Source: Nitratifractor sp. (GTDB lineage: Bacteria > Campylobacterota > Campylobacteria > Campylobacterales > Sulfurovaceae). Taken from it: a stretch of 32,888 bases of DNA. The stretch lies in NCBI GenBank assembly GCA_015488535.1, contig WFNP01000079.1, forward strand, positions 1-32,888. The letters run 5' to 3'. Position numbers and translations under genes: made by a program. Shown here one piece after another: positions 1,886 to 11,192 of the stretch (the stretch's first letter is position 1; each line of letters starts with the position of its first letter). The notes under the pieces are model-generated. The model had not been told where the DNA came from. It saw only the letters and a list, made by a program, of their open reading frames with translations, and ran no database searches.

Positions 1886-3208
1886 ATGAACCCATACAGA
1901 CAAATTCCCAAAGTAGATAAGATTTTAAATGATGAGAGTTTTAAAAAATACAATAGATATATTTTGAGTAGAGCTGTAAAAGAGGAGATAAAAACTCTAA
2001 GAGAAGATATATCAAAAGGAAAAGAGTGGAGCAAACAAGAGTTGTATAAAAATATCAAGAGAAGATATCACTCTCTAAGCTCATCATCTTTATATAAAGT
2101 TATAAATGCAACCGGAATAATTATTCATACAAATTTGGGCAGAAGTCCAATAGATAGTGAAGTTTTTGATAGTGTCAAAGAGATAGCTACAAAGTATTGC
2201 AATTTGGAATATGATATGCAAAAAGGGAGTAGGGGAGACAGATATACCCATACTGCTCAAACACTCAAAGAGTTATTTGGGTGTGAAGATGTTTTGATTG
2301 TAAATAATAATGCCTCTGCTGTTTTTTTGATACTCAATACCTTTGCAAAAAACAAAGAGGTTATTGTATCAAGAGGGGAGCTTGTAGAGATAGGCGGAAG
2401 TTTCAGAATACCGGAGGTTATGAGAGCAAGTGGAGCAATTCTCAAAGAGGTGGGGACTACAAACAGAACCAAAATCAGTGATTACAAAGAGTCGATATCA
2501 GAAGATACTGCAATGCTGATGAAAGTGCATAAATCAAATTATAAAATTGTAGGTTTTAGCCAAGATGTAGAGATTGATGAAATTACCAAATTGGCAAAAG
2601 AGAAGAATTTGATAGATTATTATGATTTGGGAAGTGCATATATCCCACCTTTGCCATACTCTCTGTCAAATAGCGAACCTTCCATTATGGATATTTTAAA
2701 AAATCAACCATCACTGGTAAGTTTTAGCGGTGATAAACTCTTTGGCTCTATTCAAGCCGGTATTATTATTGGAAAAAAAGAGTTGATAGCAAAACTTAAA
2801 AAAAATCAAATACTTAGAATGTTTAGAGTTGATAAAATCACATTGGCTATATTACAACAGAGTGCTATTAAATATTTAAAAAAAGAGTATGAAAAAATTC
2901 CCGTATTAAATATGCTCTTTACTCCATTAGAGGAGCTTGAGAAGAGGGCTGAGAGTTTAATAGATATGATACAAGATGGATTTATATACCACACTTCAAG
3001 TTTTGTGGGGGGTGGGACTATGCCGGAAGCTGAAATACCATCAGTCAGTGTAGCACTTAAAGGTAATGCCAAAGAGTTGCAAGAGGCTTTTAGAAGAGAG
3101 AATATTATAGGCAGAATAGAAAATGAGATGTTTTTAATTGATATGAGAACAGTTAAAAGAGATGATATATCTGTAATTGCCAAAGCATATAATAAAATAA
3201 AAGAATGA
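1886..3208 (+). CDS. selA: L-seryl-tRNA(Sec) selenium transferase
   Basis: A PLP-dependent enzyme that converts Ser-tRNA(Sec) to Sec-tRNA(Sec) using selenophosphate. It has 440 residues, normal for bacterial SelA. The N-terminal tRNA-binding region is followed by NATGIIIHTNLGRSP (about 73-87), a hallmark of the family, and by the PLP-lysine motif SFSGDKLFGSIQAGIIIG with Lys284. The C-terminal half has the VGGGTMPEAEIPSV motif (about 373-386). The start ATG has a weak AAAGAG site upstream. The gene is coupled to selB by a 4-nt ATGA overlap. With selB and tRNA-Sec it forms a compact selenocysteine cassette; selD and a selenoprotein are not in the window. Confidence 0.96.
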   Translation: MNPYRQIPKVDKILNDESFKKYNRYILSRAVKEEIKTLREDISKGKEWSKQELYKNIKRRYHSLSSSSLYKVINATGIIIHTNLGRSPIDSEVFDSVKEIATKYCNLEYDMQKGSRGDRYTHTAQTLKELFGCEDVLIVNNNASAVFLILNTFAKNKEVIVSRGELVEIGGSFRIPEVMRASGAILKEVGTTNRTKISDYKESISEDTAMLMKVHKSNYKIVGFSQDVEIDEITKLAKEKNLIDYYDLGSAYIPPLPYSLSNSEPSIMDILKNQPSLVSFSGDKLFGSIQAGIIIGKKELIAKLKKNQILRMFRVDKITLAILQQSAIKYLKKEYEKIPVLNMLFTPLEELEKRAESLIDMIQDGFIYHTSSFVGGGTMPEAEIPSVSVALKGNAKELQEAFRRENIIGRIENEMFLIDMRTVKRDDISVIAKAYNKIKE

Positions 3209-5055
3209 AACATATCATTATAGGCACTGCCGGACATATTGACCATGGTAAAACTTCACTTATAGAGGCGATGACGGGTTATAACGGTGATGAGAGTGAG
3301 CAAGAGAGACAAAGAGGTATTACTACATCTTTAAGCTTTTGTAATATGCAACAAAATGGAATAAATATCTCTTTTATAGATGTCCCCGGTCATGAAAAAT
3401 TGATTAAAAATATGGTAAGCGGAGCATTTGGATTTGATGCTGCACTTTTTGTAGTAGATGCCAAAGAGGGTATTATGCCTCAAACTATTGAGCATATTAA
3501 GATATTAAAACTGCTTGAAATAAAGAGGCTTATTGTAGCTGTTACAAAGTGTGATTTAGTGGATGATGAGGTATCAAAAAGAGAAATATCCAATATCACA
3601 AAGTTTATCGGAAGATACTCATATTTTGATATTCAAGCAGTTGTTCCAACCTCTATTTATGATAAAAAAAGTATAGAAAAGTTAAAAGATACTCTGTTTC
3701 AAACGCCTAAAAAAGAGTCAAAAAATTACCCGTTTTTCAGATGTTATATAGATAGAGTGTTTAGTCTTAAAGGTATCGGCACAGTGGTAACAGGCACTCT
3801 GTTATCCGGAGAGATATACAAAAAAGAGAAAATCAATATAGCCCAATTAAACAGAGTTGTAACAGTAAAAAATATACAGATACACTCCCAAGATACAGAT
3901 ATCGCACATGCTCATCAGAGAGTAGCTTTAAATCTTGATATATCTTATAATAAACTCAAAAAGGGTTATCTGTTATGCTCCAAAGGTTATTTAAGAGGTT
4001 TTGACACTATTGATGTATCTATCAAGAGTATTGATAATAGATTACCTCCGCACAATAGTCAAATACTATTTATTACAGGCTCTATGGTAGTAGAGGGTAA
4101 AATATTATATTATGAAGATAAAAATTATGCCTCCATTAAATTAAAAGATAAAATATTTTCAATATTTGAAGATAAGTTTATAATTTTGCAAAATGGAAGA
4201 TTAAAAGCAGGAGGCAAGATAGTTATACCAATAAGTGAGCCTTTAAGAAAAAGTGTGAAACTATCCCTACTCAAAGCATTGGATAGAAGAGATTTTAAAA
4301 ATGCTTTTGAGATTTTATTACAAAATCATAAAAGAGGTTTTGGATTGATATCTGCTCCCCAAAGATTTAATATGAGCCATCAAGAGGCTATTAAGATAGC
4401 CAAAGATATAAAAGATAGTTTTTTAGATGAAAAAGAGTTGGTGCTTTATTCAATAGAGGCAATAGCTAAATTAGAAGAGTCTATCAAATCTATATATCAA
4501 AATAATCCAAAAGCTCTATTATCTTCAAACTCTATAAATATGATAATTAAATGGGCTTCTGTTTCATTGATTGAATATATTTTAAATAGATTGGCAGATA
4601 GTGGATATATTCAAAAGCAAAAAAATATTTTTGTAAAGAGTGATCAAGATGTTGAAAATTTACTTGATACTGCACATAATCAAATATATCAAACTCTTCA
4701 AAATGGGGGTATGACACCAAAAGCACCAAATGATATATATAAGGATTTGGATATTGATAAAAAGATAGGGGATAATATATTAAGAGCATTATTGAGTTTA
4801 AAAAGAGTGATAAAACTATCTTCCAATATATTTGTTACTACTCAAAATCTACAAAAGGCTATCTATATAATGAAAAATATAGTGCAGGAAGATGGCTATA
4901 TAGATATCAGAAATTTTAAAAGTAAAACTCAAATGAGTAGAAAATATTGTATAGCATATCTTGAATATTTTGATAGTTTTGAAGAGGTTTATAAAAAGAA
5001 AGATAAGAGATTTTTACGGCGAGAGGGTGGAGGAATCGAACCTCCCTTGAGATAG
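3205..5055 (+). CDS. selB: Selenocysteine-specific elongation factor
   Basis: A GTPase that carries Sec-tRNA(Sec) to the ribosome and binds the SECIS hairpin in mRNA. Its 616 residues match bacterial SelB. The EF-Tu-like GTPase domain shows G1 GTAGHIDHGKTS (8-19), G3 DVPGHEKLIKNM (about 59-70) and G4 TKCD (about 114-117), followed by beta-barrel domains (about 170-340) and C-terminal winged helices (about 360-600). It overlaps the selA stop by 4 nt. The last 11 or so codons (residues 606-616, including GGGIEPPLR) are antisense to the 3' part of tRNA-Sec, so the C-terminal tail is dictated by tRNA sequence and is probably not a functional domain. The stop TAG at 5053-5055 lies within the tRNA gene. 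Confidence 0.95.
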   Translation: MKHIIIGTAGHIDHGKTSLIEAMTGYNGDESEQERQRGITTSLSFCNMQQNGINISFIDVPGHEKLIKNMVSGAFGFDAALFVVDAKEGIMPQTIEHIKILKLLEIKRLIVAVTKCDLVDDEVSKREISNITKFIGRYSYFDIQAVVPTSIYDKKSIEKLKDTLFQTPKKESKNYPFFRCYIDRVFSLKGIGTVVTGTLLSGEIYKKEKINIAQLNRVVTVKNIQIHSQDTDIAHAHQRVALNLDISYNKLKKGYLLCSKGYLRGFDTIDVSIKSIDNRLPPHNSQILFITGSMVVEGKILYYEDKNYASIKLKDKIFSIFEDKFIILQNGRLKAGGKIVIPISEPLRKSVKLSLLKALDRRDFKNAFEILLQNHKRGFGLISAPQRFNMSHQEAIKIAKDIKDSFLDEKELVLYSIEAIAKLEESIKSIYQNNPKALLSSNSINMIIKWASVSLIEYILNRLADSGYIQKQKNIFVKSDQDVENLLDTAHNQIYQTLQNGGMTPKAPNDIYKDLDIDKKIGDNILRALLSLKRVIKLSSNIFVTTQNLQKAIYIMKNIVQEDGYIDIRNFKSKTQMSRKYCIAYLEYFDSFEEVYKKKDKRFLRREGGGIEPPLR

Positions 5056-5116
5056 TCATCTATCCCAACAAGCGGGTTTGAAGCCCGTGGCGCCCACCAG
5101 AGACACATACCCTCCG
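5020..5116 (-). tRNA. selC: tRNA-Sec (anticodon TCA)
   Basis: Read on the minus strand this is a 97-nt tRNA with all marks of bacterial tRNA-Sec. The anticodon TCA (complement of 5079-5081) sits in a CGGGC/CCCG stem. The D-stem has 6 bp (GTGTCT/GGGCGC, with three G.U pairs) and a small loop. A long variable arm pairs over 9 bp (TTGGGATAG with CTATCTCAA, loop ATGA). The T-arm is GGAGG-TTCGATT-CCTCC. The acceptor pairs over 7 bp (GGAGGGT/ACCCTCT, one G.U); the expected eighth terminal pair reads C.C. The gene does not encode CCA (CCG follows the discriminator). It starts 13 nt after the deformylase-like gene on the same strand and probably shares its transcript. Its 3' part overlaps selB by 36 nt on the opposite strand. 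Confidence 0.96.
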
Positions 5117-5129
5117 CAACAGTTTAAAG

Positions 5130-5972
5130 TTATAGCAATCCTTGTGGATTTACCCAAAGCCACGCACCTACGGCAAAAGCCAAAGCCACTGCCACTCTTT
5201 TTACAATAATTCCAATCTGGTTTCCTATTTGGCATGAGCTACACTGTTTATACTTTTTGGCTTCATATTGAGCATATATAAAATATATTATCATTAAAAC
5301 TATTACAGATGGGAAAGCTATTTTATCAAATGTATATATTTTGGATATTGTAGTTGTTGTCCAATGAAAAAATTTGGCAAATATAGGAGTGATAAGTGAT
5401 AAGCCCATAAAAAATAGTATCTTGTCTGTAAAACTGGTAATATAATCTTTTCTGCTAAATGTTGGACATACATCAAGACTTTGAGGCACCAATCCTTTAC
5501 CTGCCAAAGCCTCTAATACCTGCTCTCTATAATCCTTATTTACTTTGTCAAGTGGAGTGCCACCAAATAGATAATCTATTTTACGCTGGAGTGTTGTTGA
5601 TAACCATCTATCCTCTATTTTCATACTGTGCTGATTACCCTCTCTATCCTCATATATGATAGATATTTTCTCATATCTTGGCACAGTAAGCTCAATATCG
5701 GGATAATAAGCAGTCTTCTCTTTATTCTCTATTATTCCCTCTTTTTTCAAAATTCGAGGATTTATAAACTCCAAATACTCCCCATCTTTTTTGATAATCA
5801 CAATATTAAAAGGGTGAGCAATTTGAATAGCCGCCAAAGCCTCCAAACTGTTTGCTTCCATTGTATCTTTCATATCTTGCAGTAGTCTTGGCAGACTTTC
5901 ATCTTTGAAATCTCTTACATCGGTGCAAGATAGAATCCTGTCATCAGGATATATTACCAACTCTTTTACCAT
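5130..5972 (-). CDS. Degenerate peptide-deformylase-like protein with C-terminal membrane domain
   Basis: A 280-residue protein. Residues about 1-150 follow the peptide deformylase fold: LEALAAIQ (43-50) stands where PDF has GxGLAAxQ, KTAYYPD (86-92) where PDF has EGCLSxP, and QRKIDYLFGG (129-138) where PDF has QHExDHLxG. The metal-binding Cys and both His of HExxH, plus the catalytic Glu, are all missing, so deformylase activity is very unlikely. The C-terminal half has about three membrane helices (185-203, 217-235, 254-274) and a CSSC pair (244-247) between the second and third. An upstream TTG is in frame, but GGAG lies 6 nt before the ATG at 5972, which decides the start. tRNA-Sec follows 13 nt downstream. 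The fold assignment is from motif spacing; function is unknown. Confidence 0.75.
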   Translation of the reverse strand: MVKELVIYPDDRILSCTDVRDFKDESLPRLLQDMKDTMEANSLEALAAIQIAHPFNIVIIKKDGEYLEFINPRILKKEGIIENKEKTAYYPDIELTVPRYEKISIIYEDREGNQHSMKIEDRWLSTTLQRKIDYLFGGTPLDKVNKDYREQVLEALAGKGLVPQSLDVCPTFSRKDYITSFTDKILFFMGLSLITPIFAKFFHWTTTTISKIYTFDKIAFPSVIVLMIIYFIYAQYEAKKYKQCSSCQIGNQIGIIVKRVAVALAFAVGAWLWVNPQGLL

Positions 5973-6058: not shown

Positions 6059-6083
6059 CAAGATGCCTAAAAAAGGCATCTTG
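6059..6083. terminator. Perfect 9-bp inverted repeat, possible terminator
   Basis: CAAGATGCC (6059-6067) and GGCATCTTG (6075-6083) pair perfectly over 9 bp around an A/T loop. It lies 12 bp beyond the stop of the 57-aa gene and about 90 bp upstream of the deformylase-like gene, so it could end the long sdh/sqr transcript. There is no T-run after the stem on the minus strand, so Rho-independent function is uncertain. Confidence 0.5.
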
Positions 6084-6095
6084 AAAAGATTATGA

Positions 6096-6269
6096 TTAGT
6101 GGCTCTTTTGAACAACTAAAATCATTTTAATATTGATAATTACAAATCTAATAAATTGCCAAATGAGACAAGTTCTCATAAACTTTACAAATGGTGTAGG
6201 AACCATTGTCTCAAAACTTGGCTCATATGCTTGAATATTTTTTTCTATTGAATGATCTACACTTGCCAT
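6096..6269 (-). CDS. 57-aa hydrophobic small protein downstream of SQR
   Basis: A short ORF starting MASVDHSIEKN and ending VVQKSH. It has a strong ribosome binding site (AAAGGAGA, 5 nt before ATG) and starts 17 nt after the SQR stop, so it is almost certainly translated from the SQR mRNA. The first 25 residues are polar. Residues about 32-53 (TCLIWQFIRFVIINIKMILVV region) form one hydrophobic, mildly basic helix that could be a membrane segment or an amphipathic membrane-surface helix. No family is recognised. The context suggests a partner of the membrane-associated SQR or a quinone-site accessory; this is inference. Confidence 0.72.
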   Translation of the reverse strand: MASVDHSIEKNIQAYEPSFETMVPTPFVKFMRTCLIWQFIRFVIINIKMILVVQKSH

Positions 6270-6286
6270 TATTATCTCCTTTTATA

Positions 6287-7759
6287 TTATTCTGGGATTA
6301 AAGTCCAGCCCGGATTGAGCTTGGCTTTATAGATGAACAGGTGATGTAGGATATGCTTAATCCAGTGTCCTGCAAGACCAATTTCACCAAATGTATAATC
6401 CAAATCTCTACCGATTCCCGGATACTTCTCAAAATCAGGAACAACAGGATACACAGTAAGTGCAGCTGCAATACCATTTGTAAGACTTTTACCGGCAGAT
6501 GCTACACATGCTGCACCCATTTCTGCCATAGAAGCTTCGTGAAGTTTTGCACCACTTCCTTCTCTAATCAAATCACATACACTGTGAGCTACTGCCTTAC
6601 CGATAATACCAGATGGCATACCTGTTCTTGGAGGAGTAGGATTGATTGGAGTACCCTTTGGACTCTTCATAGGCTTAGAGATTAGATGTGGTGGAGCAAA
6701 TGCAATACCTGCTGCAAAGATATTTTTGTAATCAGGGTTTTGATAAGTTCTTGGCCAATCACTAGCTTTCCACTCTTCATAAGGCTTAGCAGTATAATCA
6801 GCATCAACTTTCAAGAATCCGTTTGGAGCAAAGATTTTACTTGTGATATCTTCACCTTTTTTATCATAAGCTTTTAGACCTACACCGGCAAATGGAGGGA
6901 TAAGCATTGCAAAATCAAACTCCATTTCACCCTCTGTTCCATCCAACTGCTCATAGTGAAGTTTACCCTCTTCTACTTTGCTTACATGAGCTCCTATTGT
7001 CCAGTCAATTCCTCTTTCAACATAAAGAGACTCAGCAAATATTTTAGAACTGGCTGCATATCCACCTCTTTTGATATGAAGACCACCGATACCGAAATCT
7101 CCAAGGAAAGACTCATTTGATAGCCATCTGATATCGAGCATATCTCTTACACCGGCTTTTTGAGCTTCAAACTCAATATTGAAGATATACTCAAATGCCG
7201 CACCCTGACATGTACACATACCATGACCGGTTCCTATTACAATCTTTTGCTTTTGACCCTGTCTTGCTTTTTCAAATATTTTTCTAAGCTCACCATTTGC
7301 ATGAACTGCGTGATCAGCTGTACATACAGATACAGTATGAGGTCCGATATTTCCGTTGCCGTCACCAAGACCAGGAGTTGCATCAAAGTTTAGTTTTGGA
7401 CCTGTTGCATTGATAAGATAGTCATAAGTAATCTCTTCTGTCTGACCCTCTTTGCCCTGTCCTGTATATTCTATTGTAATATAAGGCTTATCATTGCCCT
7501 CTTTACCTTCCGGATGAATTGATACTGCTTTAGCCTGTCTGTAATCAATTCCTGCTTTTTGATAAACAGGAGCAAGAGGAAATACTACATCCTCTTTTTT
7601 CATCTGTCCAACACCTACCCAAATATTGGAAGGTATCCAGTTCCAATTGCTGTTTGGAGTAACTACTACTACTTCGTGAGCATCACCCAGCCATTCTTTG
7701 GCAAAAGTGGCTGCTGTATGTCCTGCAACACCGCCACCCATAACTACTACTCTAGCCAT
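6287..7759 (-). CDS. sqr: Sulfide:quinone oxidoreductase family flavoprotein
   Basis: A peripheral membrane flavoprotein that oxidises sulfide to polysulfide or sulfur and passes electrons to quinone. The FAD-binding motif VVVMGGGVAGHTAA lies at the N-terminus. Three candidate redox cysteines are Cys146, Cys182/184 (GMCTCQGAAFEYI) and Cys418 (GAACVASAGK), matching the spacing idea of three conserved SQR cysteines. The C-terminus has aromatic, basic helices (GHWIKHILHHLFIYKAK), typical for membrane attachment. The length of 490 residues is longer than the classic about 430; the SQR subtype was not assigned. An in-frame start 15 codons upstream exists, but an AAAGGA site lies just before the ATG at 7759. 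The 57-aa gene follows 17 nt downstream; sdhB is 104 nt upstream. A related flavocytochrome-type flavoprotein is the alternative. Confidence 0.87.
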   Translation of the reverse strand: MARVVVMGGGVAGHTAATFAKEWLGDAHEVVVVTPNSNWNWIPSNIWVGVGQMKKEDVVFPLAPVYQKAGIDYRQAKAVSIHPEGKEGNDKPYITIEYTGQGKEGQTEEITYDYLINATGPKLNFDATPGLGDGNGNIGPHTVSVCTADHAVHANGELRKIFEKARQGQKQKIVIGTGHGMCTCQGAAFEYIFNIEFEAQKAGVRDMLDIRWLSNESFLGDFGIGGLHIKRGGYAASSKIFAESLYVERGIDWTIGAHVSKVEEGKLHYEQLDGTEGEMEFDFAMLIPPFAGVGLKAYDKKGEDITSKIFAPNGFLKVDADYTAKPYEEWKASDWPRTYQNPDYKNIFAAGIAFAPPHLISKPMKSPKGTPINPTPPRTGMPSGIIGKAVAHSVCDLIREGSGAKLHEASMAEMGAACVASAGKSLTNGIAAALTVYPVVPDFEKYPGIGRDLDYTFGEIGLAGHWIKHILHHLFIYKAKLNPGWTLIPE

Positions 7760-7863
7760 GCCTATCCTTTCGATTGATTTTTTGAATGTATCAATTCTAT
7801 GCAAAATTTGTTTAAAAGTGAATTAAAACTCTAGATTTTCATACAAGATAAGAAAAAATAATA

Positions 7864-8562
7864 TTATAAAAATCCAGAAGTCCCAAAATTCATACTCATC
7901 ATATTAGGGTCACTAAATCCTGCTTGCATACTAAGTGAGCGGAGATTTAGTATATCAGATTTTGGGTCTATATTTTGAGGACATACAGCCGTGCACTCTC
8001 CGCACAGTGTGCAATCCCATACGCCATTTTGCTGTATAGCGTTGATAAGAGTCATACTGTCTCCCTCTCTTTTGTCCACAGCATATCTGTATGCTCTGCT
8101 CAAAGAAAAAGGTCCCAAAAAGTCGCTGTTTACTGCAAATACCGGACAGGCAGAGTAGCAACTGTCACATAAAATACAGTCACTTTGTCTCTCATTTGCT
8201 TTTTCGTCATTAGCCGTAAGTATCTCATCTTTATAAGTATGAAGATAGGCATTTGCTCTTTTCAATGTCTCTTTTGTTCTACTCTTATCGACTTTCAGGT
8301 CTTTTTGTATATCGTGATACCTAAGTGGTGCTATAACATCTGTATCCTCCACGGTAGTAGAACATGCCAATACCTCTTTACCGTTTTTCATTACGGCACA
8401 GGCTCCACATACACCGCTCCTGCAACCGCTGGAGAATGTGAGTGTCGGGTCAATATTTTCTTTGATATGATAGAGTGCATTCAAAAGAGTTGTTACTCTA
8501 TCAATGTGAAACTCTTTTTTGTATGTTTTAGTGCCGTTGAATCTATTAATAGTTATCTTCAT
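7864..8562 (-). CDS. sdhB: Succinate dehydrogenase/fumarate reductase iron-sulfur subunit, two-[4Fe-4S] type
   Basis: The electron-transfer subunit of an SdhA/FrdA-type complex. An N-terminal [2Fe-2S] ferredoxin domain carries Cys47, Cys52, Cys55 and Cys67. The second domain has Cys129-xx-Cys132-xx-Cys135-xxx-Cys139-Pro. The third motif is Cys184-xx-Cys187-xx-Cys190-xxx-Cys194-Pro. In classical SdhB/FrdB the residue at Cys187 is not cysteine and the site holds [3Fe-4S]; the extra Cys points to a second [4Fe-4S], as known for type E succinate:quinone reductases, Wolinella/Campylobacter SdhB (MfrB) and thiol:fumarate reductases. Its 232 residues are of normal length. The ATG overlaps the stop of a 19-codon ORF, and its own ribosome binding site is weak. 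sdhA lies upstream; no anchor subunit gene follows. Confidence 0.93.
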   Translation of the reverse strand: MKITINRFNGTKTYKKEFHIDRVTTLLNALYHIKENIDPTLTFSSGCRSGVCGACAVMKNGKEVLACSTTVEDTDVIAPLRYHDIQKDLKVDKSRTKETLKRANAYLHTYKDEILTANDEKANERQSDCILCDSCYSACPVFAVNSDFLGPFSLSRAYRYAVDKREGDSMTLINAIQQNGVWDCTLCGECTAVCPQNIDPKSDILNLRSLSMQAGFSDPNMMSMNFGTSGFL

Positions 8563-8618
8563 TCTCTATACTCTTTAACTACTTTTTTTATTAAAATATC
8601 TCTTGTAGTTCTTATCAT
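8559..8618 (-). CDS. 19-codon mini-ORF translationally coupled to sdhB
   Basis: Between sdhA and sdhB the sequence GGGAGGTAGAAAAG precedes an ATG at 8618. The frame reads MIRTTRDILIKKVVKEYRE and stops at TGA (8559-8561), which overlaps the sdhB ATG. sdhB has no strong ribosome binding site of its own, so ribosomes that finish this mini-ORF probably restart on sdhB. The peptide is basic and short and may have no function beyond coupling. It could also be a remnant of a longer gene. Confidence 0.5.
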   Translation of the reverse strand: MIRTTRDILIKKVVKEYRE

Positions 8619-8644
8619 CTTTTCTACCTCCCTGCTTTTATCTT

Positions 8645-10255
8645 TCAATTTTCTTTTTTATCCATCTCTATTGATAAATTTCCTTGCTTTATCGATACAG
8701 TCACAGTATAAGCTTTTTCTTCACTTTTGGGATAATCACTGCGGTAATGAGCCCCTCTACTCTCTTTTCTTGCGATTGCACTCTTTAGTAAAATTTGTGC
8801 AATATATAAAGAGTTTTTGATTTCTATATAGTCAGTTACACTCTCAGAGTATATAGTATCCAATCCTGCAACAGAGCATTTTTCAAATCTGCCTTTAAAC
8901 TCTTCTAATTTCTCAAGAGCTGTTTTTAATCCCTCTTCATCCCTGATAATACCGGCAGATTCAAACAGCATCTTCCCTAACTCTTTGCGGATAGCGTATA
9001 TATCTTTGATATCACCATCTGCTAAATTTAAATAGTCATCTTTTTTCACAAAAGAGGAGTTTTTTATCTCATTGCTCTCTTTGAGATTTGATAGTGCCGA
9101 TTTTGCAGCCTCTTCACCAAATGCCACAATCTCTAGCAAAGAGTTTCCTCCTAGTCTGTTTGCTCCATGCACTCCTGCTTCTGAGCATTCACCCACAGCG
9201 TAACAGTTTTTTAGTCCCTCTATCTCAAATTTTTCATTTACGGCAATTCCTCCCATGGTGTAGTGAACTGTTGGTGAAATTGGAATTAACTCTTTGGATG
9301 GGTCTATTCCGGCATGGATTTTACACAGATGAAGCTCTTGGGGCATAAGATGCTCTATCTTTTTGATTCCAAAATGACGGATATCAAGATATACTGATTT
9401 ACCCTCAGCAATTTTGTTAAATATTGCCCTGGCTACCTCATCTCTAGGAGCAAGTTCATCAATAAATCTATTGCCATCCTCATCTACTAAATATCCGCCC
9501 TCTCCTCTGGCACTCTCACTTATAAGTATATGCGACTCTTTTAAGGCTGTGGGGTGGAACTGGACAAACTCCATACTTCTAAGCACTCCTCCTGCTCTCA
9601 AAGCTGAAGCTATACCATCACCCGTAGAACCGTAGGCATTGGTGGTGTATCCGTGATATATTGCACCAAATCCTCCGGTAGCCAGTATTACAGATTTTGC
9701 TTTGATTGTAACAATATCAGCACTGGCTATATCCCAAAAGAGAGCTCCTGATACTTTGCCATCTTGTGATATTAAATCCAGTAGCATAAGCTCAGAGCGG
9801 ATATCTATATCCATAGCCAATGCTCTATCATATAGGGTATGCAAAATTTTTAAGCCTGTATAATCCTGGGCATAACAGGCTCTTTTCCTACTTGCTCCAC
9901 CAAGCTTTCTTTGTGCTATTGATGAAAGGGGAGTAGAAGCATTATCTACTCTTGAAAACGGCACTCCGTATCTTTCTAATCTCTCTATCGTTTGGGGTGC
10001 TTTTTCACAAAGTTTTCTTATCATCTCTTTATTGCCCAAAGAGTGAGAGGCTTTGAGGGTATCTTCTATATGAAGAGCAGGTGAATCCTCCTCTATATTT
10101 CCCAATGCGGCATTTATACCGCCTTGAGCCATTACTGTTTGAGACTGTGTCGGCAATCTTTTGGTAGCTACTACTACATTGGCTCCCTCTTCTTTGGCTG
10201 TAAGTGCGGCACTAAGACCCGCTCCTGCTGCTCCGATTATTAGAATATCTATCAT
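8645..10255 (-). CDS. sdhA: Succinate dehydrogenase/fumarate reductase flavoprotein subunit (non-covalent FAD type)
   Basis: A FAD enzyme interconverting fumarate and succinate, or a close relative in the FrdA/SdhA/L-aspartate oxidase family. Visible motifs are the FAD-binding IDILIIGAAGAG (2-13), MAQGGINAALG (42-52), HPTALKE, ESARGEGG, the catalytic-arginine region APRDEVARA, VHYTMGGI, GANRLGGNSLLE and, near the C-terminus, ESRGAHYRSDYP. The residue that usually binds FAD covalently (His in RSHT) is Gln39 in QSQT. There is no signal peptide, so it is cytoplasmic. An upstream in-frame start would add 16 residues inside the previous gene; the ATG at 10255, 1 nt after that gene's stop with GGAG about 10 nt before it, is preferred. 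Pairing with sdhB argues for SdhA/FrdA over NadB. Confidence 0.88.
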   Translation of the reverse strand: MIDILIIGAAGAGLSAALTAKEEGANVVVATKRLPTQSQTVMAQGGINAALGNIEEDSPALHIEDTLKASHSLGNKEMIRKLCEKAPQTIERLERYGVPFSRVDNASTPLSSIAQRKLGGASRKRACYAQDYTGLKILHTLYDRALAMDIDIRSELMLLDLISQDGKVSGALFWDIASADIVTIKAKSVILATGGFGAIYHGYTTNAYGSTGDGIASALRAGGVLRSMEFVQFHPTALKESHILISESARGEGGYLVDEDGNRFIDELAPRDEVARAIFNKIAEGKSVYLDIRHFGIKKIEHLMPQELHLCKIHAGIDPSKELIPISPTVHYTMGGIAVNEKFEIEGLKNCYAVGECSEAGVHGANRLGGNSLLEIVAFGEEAAKSALSNLKESNEIKNSSFVKKDDYLNLADGDIKDIYAIRKELGKMLFESAGIIRDEEGLKTALEKLEEFKGRFEKCSVAGLDTIYSESVTDYIEIKNSLYIAQILLKSAIARKESRGAHYRSDYPKSEEKAYTVTVSIKQGNLSIEMDKKEN

Positions 10256-10256
10256 G

Positions 10257-11192
10257 CTATTTTGACTCCATAAACTCTTGAATATTTTTTGCAATTCCTT
10301 CAATCAATCTAACTCTAGCCTCTTTTGAGGTCCAGGCAATATGTGGAGTGATTAAAAGTCTATCTTTATTTTGAATATTCATTAAAGGATTGTTCTTTTC
10401 AATTGGCTCTTTTGATACTACATCCAATCCCGCATATATATCTCTGCTATCCAGCTCGTTTGCCAAAGCCTCTTCATTTATAATTCCGCCTCTTCCAAGA
10501 TTTAAAATAATTGCTCCCTCTTTTAGTAAAGAGAGTTCATCTTTGCCGATTAGATTTTGGGTATTTTCATTTAGTGGTGCATGAATTGAGATAATATCGC
10601 TCTCTTTTAGCAACTCTTTTAATTCTTTGTGAGGATATTTGTCGCTGTGGGGATTTTTGCTTGTAGAGTAGTAGCTAAGTGTTGCACCAAAACTAGAAGC
10701 CACCTCAGCTACTCTATCTCCAATTGACCCAAGACCGATAATTCCCCATTTCATATTGGCAATTTCACCAAATCCTTTGCCAATATGCGTAAATATACCG
10801 CTTTGGCTCCATTTGCCACTTTTTACAAATTCATCATAATATTTGACTCTTTCAAGCAGATAAAAAAGCATCGAAAATGTATGTTGAACGACACTCTCGG
10901 TAGAGTATCCGGCTACATTTTTTACTTCAATCCCCATTCCTTTGGCAGCTTTCAGATCTACATTATTCATCCCGGTTGCTGCTATACAGATGAGTTTGAG
11001 TTTTGTAGCCATCATCATTGTCTCTCTGTCTATCACAACTTTGTTGGTTATGATAATTTCAGCATCTTTGATTCTCTCATTGACCTCATTTGGGCTTGTC
11101 TTTTCATATATCTGTAATTTTCCAAATTGCTCAAAAATGCTTAAATCAATATCACCACCCAGCGTAATTGCATCTAGTATTACTATCTTCAT
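10257..11192 (-). CDS. D-2-hydroxyacid dehydrogenase (glycerate/hydroxypyruvate reductase-like)
   Basis: An NAD(P)-dependent oxidoreductase that reduces a 2-oxoacid to the D-2-hydroxyacid. The 311 residues match the family. The N-terminal catalytic half contains AATGMNNVDL (71-80). The nucleotide-binding motif is GLGSIG (153-158), and the catalytic triad is Arg234 (LGRGG), Glu262 (KEPIE) and His284 (TPHIAW). The overall pattern is close to glycerate dehydrogenase (HprA), but the substrate cannot be read from sequence. It lies 2 nt after the YjbQ gene and 1 nt before the sdhA start, so it is tightly embedded in the operon. A role linked to glycerate/serine or to organic-acid supply is inference. 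Confidence 0.88.
   Translation of the reverse strand: MKIVILDAITLGGDIDLSIFEQFGKLQIYEKTSPNEVNERIKDAEIIITNKVVIDRETMMMATKLKLICIAATGMNNVDLKAAKGMGIEVKNVAGYSTESVVQHTFSMLFYLLERVKYYDEFVKSGKWSQSGIFTHIGKGFGEIANMKWGIIGLGSIGDRVAEVASSFGATLSYYSTSKNPHSDKYPHKELKELLKESDIISIHAPLNENTQNLIGKDELSLLKEGAIILNLGRGGIINEEALANELDSRDIYAGLDVVSKEPIEKNNPLMNIQNKDRLLITPHIAWTSKEARVRLIEGIAKNIQEFMESK

Follow-up and report, generated by a model that had tools for sequence, protein, structure and literature searches.

A membrane-anchored peptide deformylase pseudoenzyme encoded beside sulfide:quinone reductase in Campylobacterota

Divergent type III peptide deformylases (PDFs) are known, as are phage and organellar deformylases with altered motifs. 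The protein of phage S-SSM7 (3uwa) also has a divergent PDF fold; its entry title names it a probable deformylase, and the companion structure, 3uwb, contains actinonin. We know of no altered-motif phage or organellar deformylase with the membrane and CxxC architecture described below, or with its linkage to the gene for sulfide:quinone reductase (SQR). A search of open-licence papers returned none on an inactive membrane PDF, and none in which 'peptide deformylase' appears together with Sulfurimonas or Sulfurovum. SQRs are monotopic membrane flavoproteins, and a purple sulfur bacterium has types IV and VI (PMC9666304), while Sulfurimonas has types II-VI, type IV being found in every sequenced species, and no flavocytochrome c (PMC4584964). 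The SQR literature that we consulted describes a single monotopic protein, and our search of open-licence papers did not find an accessory membrane subunit of SQR. The locus analysed here touches on the question of how SQR passes on its sulfur product and electrons.

A PDF fold without the deformylase active site

The window, a 32,888-nucleotide stretch of Nitratifractor sp. DNA, encodes on its minus strand, at positions 5130-5972, a membrane-anchored pseudo-peptide-deformylase of 280 amino acids (pPDF). The frame (coding 5133-5972, stop codon 5130-5132) is intact, as the original prediction, made from the sequence alone, had stated; an alternative TTG start, 12 nt further upstream, is possible. 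Since the same gene is present in complete single-contig genomes, pPDF is not an assembly artefact, and the agreement set out below goes far beyond chance. Pfam Pep_deformylase (PF01327) matches residues 3-147 with an E-value of 1.1e-28, and matches to the NCBIfam deformylase equivalogs fall far under their cut-offs. When a profile of the pPDF family was compared with known structures, H. pylori PDF was the top match (9.3e-29 with 19 rows, 1.2e-31 with 83 rows). An AlphaFold model built from the 83-row alignment has a mean pLDDT of 89.4 and supersedes an earlier model (19 rows, pLDDT 80) that left the N-terminus unresolved. Residues 1-165 of the model superimpose on H. pylori PDF 2ew5 with a VIA-align Z of 24.1 and an rmsd of 1.8 over 157 residues, and Foldseek matched the model to H. 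pylori PDF 2ew7 at 2.0e-13. The fold is thus that of PDF, contradicting an unrelated fold, and we assign residues 1-160 (5493-5972, minus strand) to the PDF-like domain. With bona fide PDFs (PF01327; H. pylori 2ew5 and 2ew7, E. coli Def), pPDF has in common the fold of residues 1-165, the structural residues and the positions of the three motifs; in contrast to them, it has neither the metal ligands nor the catalytic Glu, adds a three-helix membrane part, C169 and a CxxC pair, and is linked to sqr.

Alignment to PDFs of known structure located all three motifs by position and bore out the predicted replacement of the metal Cys, both His and the catalytic Glu. Former motif I, GxGLAAxQ, reads LxALxAxQ in the family, where L46, A48 and Q50 are retained and the glycines replaced. 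Former motif II, EGCLS, is EKTAYYP here (residues 85-91; 5700-5720, minus strand), with T87 in place of the metal Cys. Former motif III, QHExDHLxG, is QRKIDYLFG (residues 129-137; 5562-5588, minus strand), in which R130 and Y134 replace the two His and K131 the catalytic Glu. Not one of 92 non-redundant homologues has the full metal and catalytic set: position 87 is T or S in 88 and C in only three, H130 occurs once, and E131 and H134 are absent from all. Almost all of the 92 carry the same usual replacements, namely T/S87, R/Q130, K/M/Q/T131 and Y/F134, while P9, R20, N71, E85, R99 and D133, the fold-type residues that had been expected to be kept, are invariant in 92/92, and Q50 is present in 87/92. 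Active-site loss is, therefore, a trait of the whole pPDF family and not of the window copy alone, and, because the replacing residues are themselves conserved, the pocket has been rebuilt rather than decayed.

When analysed together with 17 Campylobacterota PDFs, the pseudo-PDFs group as a single clade (support 1.0) beside them in the tree, on a long stem whose exact attachment is weak. A normal PDF is encoded separately in the same genome, on another contig (G000:C13, locus L154), with EGCLS and QHEMDHL intact. pPDF is under purifying selection: dN/dS is 0.05-0.20 for within-genus pairs with measurable dS (dS is saturated wherever the window copy is one of the pair), and the frame is open in all 87 full-length copies. 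Homology, family-wide loss of catalytic residues and purifying selection together make pPDF a PDF-fold pseudoenzyme, and the earlier argument from a retained frame to a new function holds for the family.

These numbers bear directly on the idea that pPDF is a decaying pseudogene or a neutral passenger of the sqr locus. A frame-broken copy on a Sulfurovum mangrovi plasmid and the 32 SQR genomes that lack pPDF (see below) would fit such decay; the 87 open frames, the low dN/dS, the residues invariant across families and the maintained paralogues speak against it and make it the least probable of the readings that we considered, hardly to be entertained. In the Sulfurovum mangrovi case the two halves of the broken gene are annotated as two 'peptide deformylase' genes, which shows how databases name the pPDF family; some genes so annotated are very unlikely to be deformylases. 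The replicon in question (L172, NZ_CP087125.1, 395 kb), labelled a plasmid, has the sqr cassette at 6134-10747 alongside rpsI and rplM, so that a second chromosome or a mislabelled fragment is conceivable.

The membrane part and its cysteines

The three membrane helices and the CSSC pair that the original prediction described as additions to the PDF fold were both found. Hydropathy, the model and a profile search delimit a membrane part of residues 175-280 (5133-5450, minus strand) with three hydrophobic segments, peaking at about residues 184-202, 214-235 and 253-274. It is preceded by C169 (5466-5468, minus strand), which lies in a D/E-x-CP linker before the first membrane helix in 89/92 homologues. 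CSSC, residues 244-247 (5232-5243, minus strand), is an invariant C-x-x-C followed by an invariant Gln: C244, C247 and Q248 are present in 92/92 homologues, and Y233, A234 and E237 are nearly invariant. By the positive-inside rule, with KKYKQ before and KR after it, CSSC would be at the cytoplasmic face of the membrane; the PDF-like domain would likewise be cytoplasmic, judging from the same rule and from a signal peptide not being seen.

Searches with a profile of the membrane part alone gave matches joined to a PDF-like part, save in one fragmented genome. We therefore rejected the C-terminal membrane and CxxC domain as a family of its own, the sole free-standing frame (111 aa) being in that fragmented genome, together with a cut pPDF. 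A resemblance of the C-terminal part to FeoB-associated Cys-rich protein (E 0.06-0.22) was dropped.

Linkage to sqr and a hidden small gene

With a full-length match of more than 200 bits required (canonical PDFs reach about 115-130), pPDF was found in 79 of 397 Campylobacterota genomes, as 87 copies. A scan of named genomes with a single peptide pattern placed it, among the best 80 matches, in Sulfurovum, Nitratifractor, Sulfurimonas, Sulfuricurvum and unclassified Campylobacterales. One type of SQR is encoded in 111 of the 397 genomes, including all 79 with pPDF (Fisher p ~1e-57, a value that ignores phylogeny and is to be read only as a strong association). In 71 of the 87 copies pPDF directly follows sqr in the same orientation. 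Genes flanking the pair vary by lineage (rpsI/rplM, selA/selB, a hybrid kinase and others), so that the pairing is not mere large-scale synteny. SQR itself does not need pPDF, given that 32 of the 111 SQR genomes are without it.

In the window the SQR gene (490 aa, ATG start; 6287-7759, minus strand) is two steps upstream of pPDF. It was identified by Pyr_redox_2 and by phmmer against the PDB, which gave 4.6e-40 with Aquifex SQR and 2.5e-36 with A. ferrooxidans SQR. The protein is, thus, a homologue of 3hyv and 3sz0, respectively, and what the present locus adds to these systems is a 57-aa partner and pPDF. Cysteines that could form the redox-active pair are present in its sequence, and its assignment to type IV is only a guess. 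Elsewhere in the set, one SQR copy (G343:C30:1239-2399, minus strand) has an in-frame TGA, for which a broken gene, a sequencing error and selenocysteine are candidate causes.

The gap between sqr and pPDF, 227-415 bp in named loci, contains an ORF of about 53-58 aa in 61/61. In the window this small gene (57 aa; 6096-6269, minus strand) is preceded by a good Shine-Dalgarno sequence, and its product has a single hydrophobic or amphipathic helix and a C-terminal KSH. It has 16 invariant columns across 20 diverse rows and a median dN/dS of 0.24, and no match that counts was obtained in Pfam, NCBIfam or the PDB. Its distribution over the 397 genomes coincides exactly with that of SQR (111 genomes), apart from one spurious weak match. 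Of the 115 SQR copies, among them second copies and those lacking a pPDF, 114 have the small gene behind them, and the remaining one is truncated by a contig end. Downstream of related SQRs (62% and 60% identical to that of the window), homologues occur on plasmids from Candidatus Thiodictyon (a gammaproteobacterium) and Marivivens (an alphaproteobacterium), annotated as hypothetical proteins; pPDF is not annotated beside them. As it accompanies SQRs beyond the phylum, without an annotated pPDF, the small gene is a partner of SQR, to which pPDF looks like a later addition made within Campylobacterota.

Just after the stop of the small ORF lies a stem-loop (AAGATGCC / GGCATCTT; 6059-6083, minus strand), and a strong hairpin is found at this place in 60/61 loci. 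The hairpin separates the small ORF from pPDF, so that the two may not share a transcript; pPDF may have a transcript of its own or depend on read-through past the hairpin. A regulatory RNA in the gap was considered and rejected, because Rfam gave only the nearby tRNA-Sec and the small ORF explains why the gap is conserved. That tRNA-Sec (5021-5115, minus strand) is antisense to the end of selB (3205-5055, plus strand), with a 35-base overlap, and is clustered with selA and selB (1886-5055) beside pPDF. A link of pPDF to selenocysteine genes was dropped, as selAB-like genes are nearby in only about five close relatives.

Candidate roles of pPDF and its second copies

The strict linkage to SQR, together with the hidden 57-aa gene, directs attention to sulfur metabolism and away from the processing of protein N-termini. 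We propose, at roughly even odds (about 0.5), that the PDF-derived pPDF serves SQR as a membrane-anchored accessory, docking onto SQR itself or the small partner, with cysteines that accept or sense the sulfane sulfur made by SQR. According to this proposal, a PDF paralogue would have lost catalysis once, acquired three membrane helices with conserved cysteines as an anchor, and been recruited as an accessory of SQR. The PDF-like domain, with its rebuilt pocket (T/S87, R/Q130 and Y/F134, with E85 and D133 kept), would be a docking module at the cytoplasmic face of the membrane, its target being either SQR or the 57-aa protein, and C169 and C244-x-x-C247, at the membrane surface, would take up, or signal, the sulfane sulfur arising from sulfide oxidation by SQR. 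Peptide binding by the PDF-like groove could remain. A bolder version, which we hold only tentatively and regard as appreciably less probable, is that this type of SQR functions in a membrane complex, with the 57-aa protein as an obligate and hitherto unnoticed subunit and, in Campylobacterota, the dead deformylase as a third, whose cysteines take the sulfane sulfur from SQR; if true, the PDF fold would have gained a new function in sulfur relay. pPDF cleanly illustrates how a housekeeping enzyme fold can be converted into a pseudoenzyme with a new role at the membrane. Together with the small gene it offers named, testable partners of SQR in sulfide oxidisers that are widespread (Sulfurimonas, Sulfurovum, Nitratifractor and Sulfuricurvum).

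Neighbouring regulatory genes bring in a first rival, that pPDF is a membrane sensor of sulfide, polysulfide or redox state, in which reaction of the cysteines with sulfane sulfur would be signalled by the PDF-like domain to a cytoplasmic partner, for example the hybrid histidine kinase and response regulator encoded downstream in Sulfurimonas. Genes for a hybrid kinase (cluster 2) and a response regulator (cluster 3) are near sqr-pPDF in 34 named loci each, and second pPDF copies adjoin MerR regulators, consistent with sensing. The kinase neighbour is, however, absent on the Sulfurovum and Nitratifractor side, the window included, and the strict partner of pPDF is SQR, not the kinase; we consider a sensor unlikely, if the foremost of the rivals.

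Somewhat less likely again is that pPDF acts in assembly or insertion, the dead PDF domain keeping the nascent N-terminus of SQR, or that of its small partner, at the membrane and helping to position these proteins, with no sulfur chemistry involved. PDF folds bind nascent N-termini, pPDF retains Q50, E85 and the region of the C-terminal helix, and the SQR frame opens directly on the FAD-binding strand with no signal peptide visible, all of which would suit such a factor. But the 32 SQR genomes do without pPDF, the invariant CxxC is left unexplained by this role, and the second paralogues sit away from SQR.

The original prediction suggested, as an example of a new function, that pPDF binds N-terminal formyl-methionine peptides at the membrane or acts in sensing, not in catalysis. 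Sensing in general may apply, as in the first rival. With binding or sensing of N-formyl-methionine peptides the kept PDF fold, including the oxyanion Gln Q50, is compatible; yet the metal and catalytic set is gone, and the genomic context is sulfur oxidation, not translation. Having found nothing in support of it, we rank it well below the sensor and the assembly factor, as very improbable. Aminopeptidase N (pepN) adjoins sqr only on the Sulfurimonas side, where it is directly upstream in about 24 loci (for example L099, 3554-6115). That an N-terminal peptidase should stand with a dead deformylase is odd; lineage synteny probably accounts for it.

The copies of pPDF away from sqr are found mainly in a 23-member clade (support 0.997) and among four basal copies. 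Within that clade, many adjoin genes for a MerR regulator, AhpD/CMD-type proteins and DsrE-type sulfur-relay proteins, and the context of the second copies is all sulfur and redox chemistry. Some genomes, such as G161 and G205, are without the sqr-side pPDF and have a second copy about 8 kb away. The only small gene without an adjoining SQR (G333:C95:20119-20271, minus strand) lies 14 bases upstream of a second-copy pPDF. In another locus (L120, 430-3251) a second-copy pPDF follows two YeeE/YedE-like genes and an AhpD-like gene and is itself followed by a thioredoxin-like gene (the YeeE/YedE-type and thioredoxin names were assigned by eye), possibly a cluster for sulfur import or detoxification.
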